DNA from: Halobaculum rubrum
GTDB lineage: Archaea; Halobacteriota; Halobacteria; Halobacteriales; Haloferacaceae
DNA length: 64,000 nt
Reading direction: 5' to 3'
NCBI RefSeq assembly: GCF_019880225.1
Contig: NZ_CP082284.1
Location: forward strand, 1,922,001-1,986,000
The notes beneath the pieces are model-generated. The model was not told the origin of the DNA. It made no database searches and worked only from the letters and a program-made list of their open reading frames with translations. The position numbers and the translations under genes were made by a program. This document shows, piece after piece, positions 34,762 to 40,434 of the stretch. Each line of letters begins with the position of its first letter. Positions within the stretch are counted from its first letter, which is position 1.

Positions 34762-35265
34762 TCACGAGCCGTCCCCCCCGGCTTCGTCCTCCGGACTCTC
34801 CTCGGGGTCCAGGAAGCCGTGATACGGGCAGACGTGCTCGTCGCGGATGAGTTGCTCGTCGATGATCTCCAGTCCCAGTTCGTCCAGCTCCCGGTTGATC
34901 CGGTCGAGGTCGTCGTGATCGCGACCGATCGCGTTCACGTACACGTTCCGCTCGCCGGTCATGATCTCGCGGACCGCCGTCACGCCGCGGATCTCTCTGG
35001 CCTTCCTCCCCAGCTCGTCGCGCTCCGGGATCTGCGCGGTGCAGACGATCTTCGTGTACAGCGGGTAGCCCGCGAGGTCGTAGTCGATGTCGATGTGGTA
35101 GCCGCGGACGATCCCCGACTGTTCGAGCTTGTTGAGGCGGGTCCGCACCGTGCTCGCCGAGAGATCGAGCTTCTCCGCGATGTCGCTCGACGACGTCCCT
35201 CGGGCGTCCTGCTGGAGGTAATAGAGGATGTGCCGGTCGACGGAATCCAACTCGCCGTCCTTCAT
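34762..35265 (-). CDS. Lrp/AsnC family transcriptional regulator
   Basis: 167 residues. The AsnC helix-turn-helix (residues about 5-62: DRHILYYLQQDARGTSSSDIAEKLDLSASTVRTRLNKLEQSGIV) is followed by a RAM-like ligand domain (YPLYTKIVCTAQIPERDELGRKAREI, GERNVYVNAIGRDHDDLDRINREL). The frame is open to 35295 and beyond. I chose 35265 because a TATA-like GACTAATG lies about 25-30 bases upstream of it, while nothing suitable precedes 35295. It is divergent from the amino-acid permease gene and may control it. Confidence 0.9.
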   Translation of the reverse strand: MKDGELDSVDRHILYYLQQDARGTSSSDIAEKLDLSASTVRTRLNKLEQSGIVRGYHIDIDYDLAGYPLYTKIVCTAQIPERDELGRKAREIRGVTAVREIMTGERNVYVNAIGRDHDDLDRINRELDELGLEIIDEQLIRDEHVCPYHGFLDPEESPEDEAGGDGS

Positions 35266-35389
35266 TTCTACCGTGGACTGCTCCGGCCGACGCATTAGTC
35301 TTGTTCCGTCGACCGCGTCCCCGGAGCCCCGCCGTCGACCCGGGCTCAGGTGCGGATCGGGAACGGATAGAGCGATATATGTATCTATC

Positions 35390-35422
35390 ATTGACGATCC
35401 GTCAATAGAAACGCTTTATTTA
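35390..35422 (+). promoter_or_regulatory. Palindrome plus TATA box of the permease gene
   Basis: ATTGACG-ATC-CGTCAAT (35390-35406) is a perfect 7-3-7 inverted repeat. CTTTATTTA (35414-35422) is a strong TATA box eight bases downstream. The start codon is at 35480, so this gene has a leader of about 30 bases. The palindrome lies between the Lrp gene and the permease gene and is a natural candidate for Lrp binding. Confidence 0.65.
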
Positions 35423-40351: not shown

Positions 40352-40434
40352 CGTAAATAACTCTCACGATACTGATGGTTTTGGCATGCCGAAAGCGAGC
40401 ACACTCGCGGATCGGTCTTTTTGGCCGTCCAAAA
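40352..40434 (-). promoter_or_regulatory. ZIP promoter with two palindromic operators 40 bp apart
   Basis: The minus-strand TATA box is at 40352-40359. TTTTGG-CATG-CCGAAA (40379-40394) and TTTTGG-CCGT-CCAAAA (40419-40434) share the pattern TTTTGG-N4-CC(G/A)AAA. Their centres are exactly 40 bases apart, close to four helical turns. The form resembles sites of DtxR-type metal repressors; the actual regulator is not in the window. Confidence 0.7.

Follow-up and report, generated by a model that had tools for sequence, protein, structure and literature searches.

The ZIP-family metal transporter gene of Halobaculum rubrum is preceded by two palindromes of the same kind. The proximal palindrome is probably a conserved DtxR-type operator that represses the ZIP gene when metal is plentiful, and the distal one a labile auxiliary site. 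The sites are read as DtxR-type operators because the motif also precedes iron and siderophore uptake genes in other haloarchaea. The regulator, which would be one of the two DtxR-family proteins whose genes lie elsewhere in the genome, would when loaded with metal bind the conserved proximal palindrome just upstream of the BRE/TATA region of the presumably leaderless ZIP gene. Once bound, it would hinder TFB/TBP loading, so that the transporter would be made under metal scarcity. The distal palindrome may have been repeatedly gained and moved in evolution and would raise local occupancy with no need for a fixed helical phase. Regulator binding, the identity of the metal, the binding paralogue and the sign of control are what we infer from the observed motif, its conservation and position, the motif class common to iron genes and the presence of the regulators.

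Arrangement and conservation of the ZIP promoter

The preliminary description reported two palindromes 40 bp apart upstream of the ZIP gene, and this was confirmed. Both TTTTGGCATGCCGAAA (proximal) and TTTTGGCCGTCCAAAA (distal) are exact forward-strand matches to TTTTGGNNNNCCRAAA, with start-to-start and centre-to-centre distances of 40 bp alike (Table 1). Position 40352 is merely the edge of the span noted originally, and the first palindrome begins 27 bp beyond it. The start of the gene was placed at ATG 40332, from which the homologues align and about 25 bp before which a TATA-like box is found; the transcript is thus presumably leaderless. The longest open reading frame would start at GTG 40404 and place the proximal palindrome inside the frame, and was rejected because the homologue alignment begins at ATG 40332. 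The ZIP protein is 93% identical to its Halobaculum saliterrae counterpart and also gave a below-cutoff match to ZupT NF003243.

Table 1. Features of the ZIP locus in the window, the whole 64-kb stretch of DNA that was analysed
Feature	Position	Strand	Remarks
Proximal operator (predicted), TTTCGGCATGCCAAAA in gene orientation	40379..40394	-	-62 to -47 from ZIP start codon
Distal operator (predicted), TTTTGGACGGCCAAAA in gene orientation	40419..40434	-	-102 to -87 from ZIP start codon
Second inverted repeat, ATCAGTATCGTGAG (TCA-N6-TGA)	40363..40376	-	between proximal operator and TATA box
TATA-like box, TTATTTA	40354..40360	-	~25 bp before ATG
ZIP-family metal transporter gene, 270 aa	39520..40332	-	Pfam PF02535, E 6.6e-16

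All 10 Halobaculum genomes that bear a ZIP gene have the proximal site at -62 to -64, one of them with a single mismatch, and the genus search found no ZIP in an 11th. We then considered 90 ZIP promoters, comprising 80 homologues, nine congener loci and that of the window. At no more than 1 mismatch the proximal site is present in 44 of them, or in 42/88 once the duplicates (L164 = L015, L165 = L016) are removed; read in gene orientation, the sites have the consensus TTTAGGCCGGCCAAAA. In 34 of the 42 site-bearing promoters, 18-19 bp separate the operator from the start of the AT-richest heptamer. At the same threshold the site is absent from 46/88 distinct promoters, mainly of Halorubrum, Natrinema and allies. 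The orthologous promoters thus do not refute the operator reading.

The second inverted repeat overlaps the presumed BRE. A TCA-N6-TGA or ATC-N8-GAT repeat directly follows the operator in 28 of the 42 ZIP promoters (shuffle mean 0.18, maximum 2), which are not 28 independent events since the promoters share descent; only 3/46 promoters without the operator carry such a repeat. The composite TTTAGGN4CCNAAA-N(1-5)-ATCN8GAT was matched four times in 117 genomes, each time before ZIP. A regulon of the second repeat itself was also considered and rejected: the pattern ATCAN6TGATAA-N(1-5)-TTA gave 22 loci among the matches listed for 194 genomes, as against 26 for the reversed control. Five of these 22 loci hold ZIP, and enrichment beyond ZIP was not found.

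Distribution of the motif and of candidate regulators

Within the window, TTTTGGNNNNCCRAAA with up to 2 mismatches gave 5 strand-matches, compared with 0.94 expected, and 5 was reached in 1 of 100 shuffles. With up to 1 mismatch, the whole 3.06-Mb genome has 6 matches on the forward strand and 8 on the reverse; the reversed control gave none. The relaxed motif TTTNGGNNNNCCNAAA occurs exactly at 8 places in the genome, of which only the two ZIP sites are in the window; with 1 mismatch allowed there are 23 places, compared with 10 for the control. As judged by reading the open reading frames, all eight exact places are intergenic, so that the frequency of the motif inside and upstream of genes did not refute the operator reading either. 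Besides the two at ZIP, one precedes a 2Fe-2S ferredoxin gene (NF041393), one is flanked by a ferredoxin/Hdr-like gene and a formate-dehydrogenase-like gene, one by a transporter gene and a glycosyltransferase-like gene, and one by a FEN1-like gene and a cupin gene. The remaining two precede an RGP-like gene adjoining a solute-binding-protein gene and a small ORF near DpsA, respectively. The metal-handling targets in this genome are ZIP, ferredoxin and Fe-S oxidoreductase genes, with one site near Dps. One site with 1 mismatch (locus L006) lies inside an ABC-transporter ORF. At L009:4013-4055 in the same genome, an RGP-like glycosyltransferase gene that adjoins a solute-binding protein gene is preceded by two boxes at a distance of 27 bp, of which one has 1 mismatch.

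The general motif, TTTNGG-N4-CCNAAA, was found at 6-27 places per genome in all 24 other haloarchaea, compared with 0-3 for the control, which was the reversed motif. Meanwhile, a pair pattern allowing a spacing of 28-58 matched in 34/59 genomes of the order, and its control in none. The genome motif search and the pair-pattern search together yielded 54 loci, 30 of them preselected by the pair pattern, with 34 neighbouring pairs. Their spacing is 36 (n = 18), 35 (n = 7) or 34 (n = 5), and otherwise 44 (n = 2), 33 (n = 1) or 30 (n = 1). The gap within these iron-type pairs often resembles a BRE followed by a TATA box, e.g. ATCCGAAACGCATTTAGTGG, and an ORF starts 2-6 bp after the second site in 21 of the 30 pair loci. 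A Pfam scan of 20 genes, from 20 of these 30 loci, gave Peripla_BP_2, a domain of siderophore and iron binding proteins, in 13, DUF5059 in two, and SBP_bac_6, Aminotran_3 (a class-III aminotransferase), Fe_dep_repress, CARDB and pyridine-nucleotide oxidoreductase in one each. The motif clusters at metal genes, at ZIP in H. rubrum and before Peripla_BP_2 genes elsewhere, and judged from these sequences the paired motif marks a predicted iron-uptake regulon in haloarchaea. In loci L131-L160 the pairs lie 34-36 bp apart and straddle BRE/TATA, the second site often standing 2-6 bp before the ATG of an iron or siderophore binding protein, an arrangement that clamps the core promoter and recurs in many haloarchaea. 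An Idr-like DtxR gene (L152:991-1446) has a 36-bp site pair upstream, which suggests autoregulation.

Three places in the H. rubrum genome matched PF01325 above the cut-off. Two are clear DtxR-family proteins with Fe_dep_repress and Fe_dep_repr_C domains, namely L097 (253 aa, PF02742 and a FeoA domain) and L098 (145 aa, PF02742); their nearest solved relatives are 5zr4, 8pvt, IdeR, DtxR and MntR. The third (L099) is Lrp-type by reading of its translation. No DtxR gene is present in the 64-kb window and both clear ones are located outside it, in agreement with the earlier statement that the regulator acts from elsewhere. A regulator gene in the window (34762-35391, minus strand) was rejected as a DtxR candidate, being of Lrp/AsnC type with a DtxR HTH match below the cut-off. 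L098 (L098:1240-1677) and its orthologues are short DtxR-family proteins with conserved cysteines (CPDC and others), which may point to a metal or redox site rich in thiols. Haloarchaea have three DtxR paralogue types, of which the Idr-like third (L176) is missing from the H. rubrum genome, and paired iron-type sites occur both with and without it. Naming the regulator by co-occurrence was tried and abandoned. The L097 query, which left out L029 and L064, matched 36/36 genomes whose ZIP promoter has a site or near-site as well as the 42/42 searched genomes whose ZIP promoter has none. As a DtxR relative occurs in all 42 site-less genomes searched, co-occurrence neither picks nor requires a regulator. 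According to excerpts of published work, Idr, SirR and TroR are candidate iron regulators of Haloferax volcanii (PMC11349517), Halobacterium SirR exerts Mn-dependent repression of Mn uptake genes (PMC3600143), and a FeoA-domain DtxR protein has been described (PMC11218638); the present motif appears in none of these excerpts.

Site spacing and alternative explanations

The preliminary description took the exact 40-bp distance as close to four turns, a spacing at which two dimers on one DNA face might cooperate or loop. Both sites are indeed intact and exact in H. rubrum, but we consider this reading very unlikely in the light of the related promoters. Of the 10 ZIP-bearing Halobaculum genomes only 4 have a distal site, at spacings of 40 (H. 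rubrum), 28, 29 and 28, and a second site was not found in the other six. In nine of ten Haloferax multi-site loci one spacing is 47 or 48, the tenth (L033), with three sites, has spacings of 32 and 15, and 40 is found in none of the 34 neighbouring pairs from the 54 loci. At 10.5 bp per turn, 40 bp corresponds to 3.81 turns, about 70 degrees off the same face; the other Halobaculum spacings correspond to 2.67, 2.76 and 2.67 turns, and those of 47-48 in Haloferax to about 4.5. The conserved near-integral spacing of a same-face cooperative tandem operator is absent. Since spacings differ among relatives, the 40 bp is therefore a property of H. rubrum, no common phase is kept, and the argument from an exact 40 bp, four turns and one face fails.

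As for the metal-responsive repressor of the preliminary description, the assignment to DtxR-type operators stands, the motif being conserved and found before iron and siderophore genes, whereas repression itself is only the likelier sign of control at ZIP. Enrichment over the reversed control, the fixed proximal position, the iron-gene motif, the two DtxR proteins and the SirR precedent all count for a repressing operator. Against it count the 46/88 distinct ZIP promoters without a site although DtxR relatives are present in 42/42 genomes searched, and an operator upstream of BRE/TATA that, unlike at iron genes, leaves the start uncovered by any site. Such a position is also typical of archaeal activators. 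The same DtxR-type operator might thus let the bound regulator activate ZIP by aiding TFB/TBP binding from upstream, for example in cross-control where plenty of one metal switches on uptake of another. The operator stops some 18 bp short of the TATA box and no site overlaps the start, whereas iron-type pairs put the second site 2-6 bp before ATG in 21/30 loci. However, DtxR proteins normally bind DNA when metal is plentiful, which fits activation of an importer poorly, and activation is a possible but distinctly less probable explanation than repression.

The palindromes could also be bound by a regulator, perhaps specific for zinc, that belongs to a different family and only resembles DtxR in specificity. 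The CCAAAA half is frequent at ZIP sites, compared with CCTAAA at iron-type sites, and the second inverted repeat accompanies the site at ZIP only. But CCAAAA and CCGAAA halves also occur in iron-type pairs, and by sequence the ZIP and iron-type sites appear to form one continuous motif class, which makes a separate family improbable. Similarly doubtful is the idea that DtxR-type regulators read promoter geometry: a pair about 36 bp apart would clamp BRE/TATA and the start at iron genes, giving repression, and the same protein, bound upstream only at ZIP beside the second repeat, would act differently, perhaps as an activator or with a second factor at TCA-N6-TGA. A repressing proximal operator with a labile auxiliary site is the explanation we retain.

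Relation to known metalloregulatory systems

ZIP genes are reported by Leyn and Rodionov (2015) to belong to archaeal DtxR regulons. On the reading retained here, a ZIP transporter of many haloarchaea and siderophore uptake would fall under one DtxR-type operator class, and evolution would preserve where a site stands relative to BRE/TATA, not how two sites are phased along the helix. Set side by side, the iron-type pairs, which straddle TATA at a spacing of about 36 bp, and the ZIP layout, with both sites upstream, could serve as a testable system for repression and activation by archaeal metalloregulators. A literature search that excluded the three main haloarchaeal DtxR papers found no paper giving the motif or the spacing.

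The closest known system is presumably the haloarchaeal DtxR-family regulons of Idr1/Idr2, SirR and TroR (Leyn and Rodionov 2015, Schmid 2011, Martinez-Pastor 2017). Their operators likewise seem to feature a TTTAGG/CCTAAA-like palindrome before metal-uptake genes, and DtxR-type regulators are encoded in the genome, as here. They differ from the H. rubrum sites in that the halves at ZIP are TTTTGG and TTTCGG, and that both ZIP sites are upstream of TATA with the start uncovered. More distantly, the Corynebacterium DtxR/IdeR operator is TTAGGTTAGSCTAACCTAA. It shares TTAGG/CCTAA half-sites with the ZIP sites, and the regulators belong to one fold family, whereas the ZIP sites are 16 bp long with an N4 centre and stand in tandem near an archaeal BRE/TATA.
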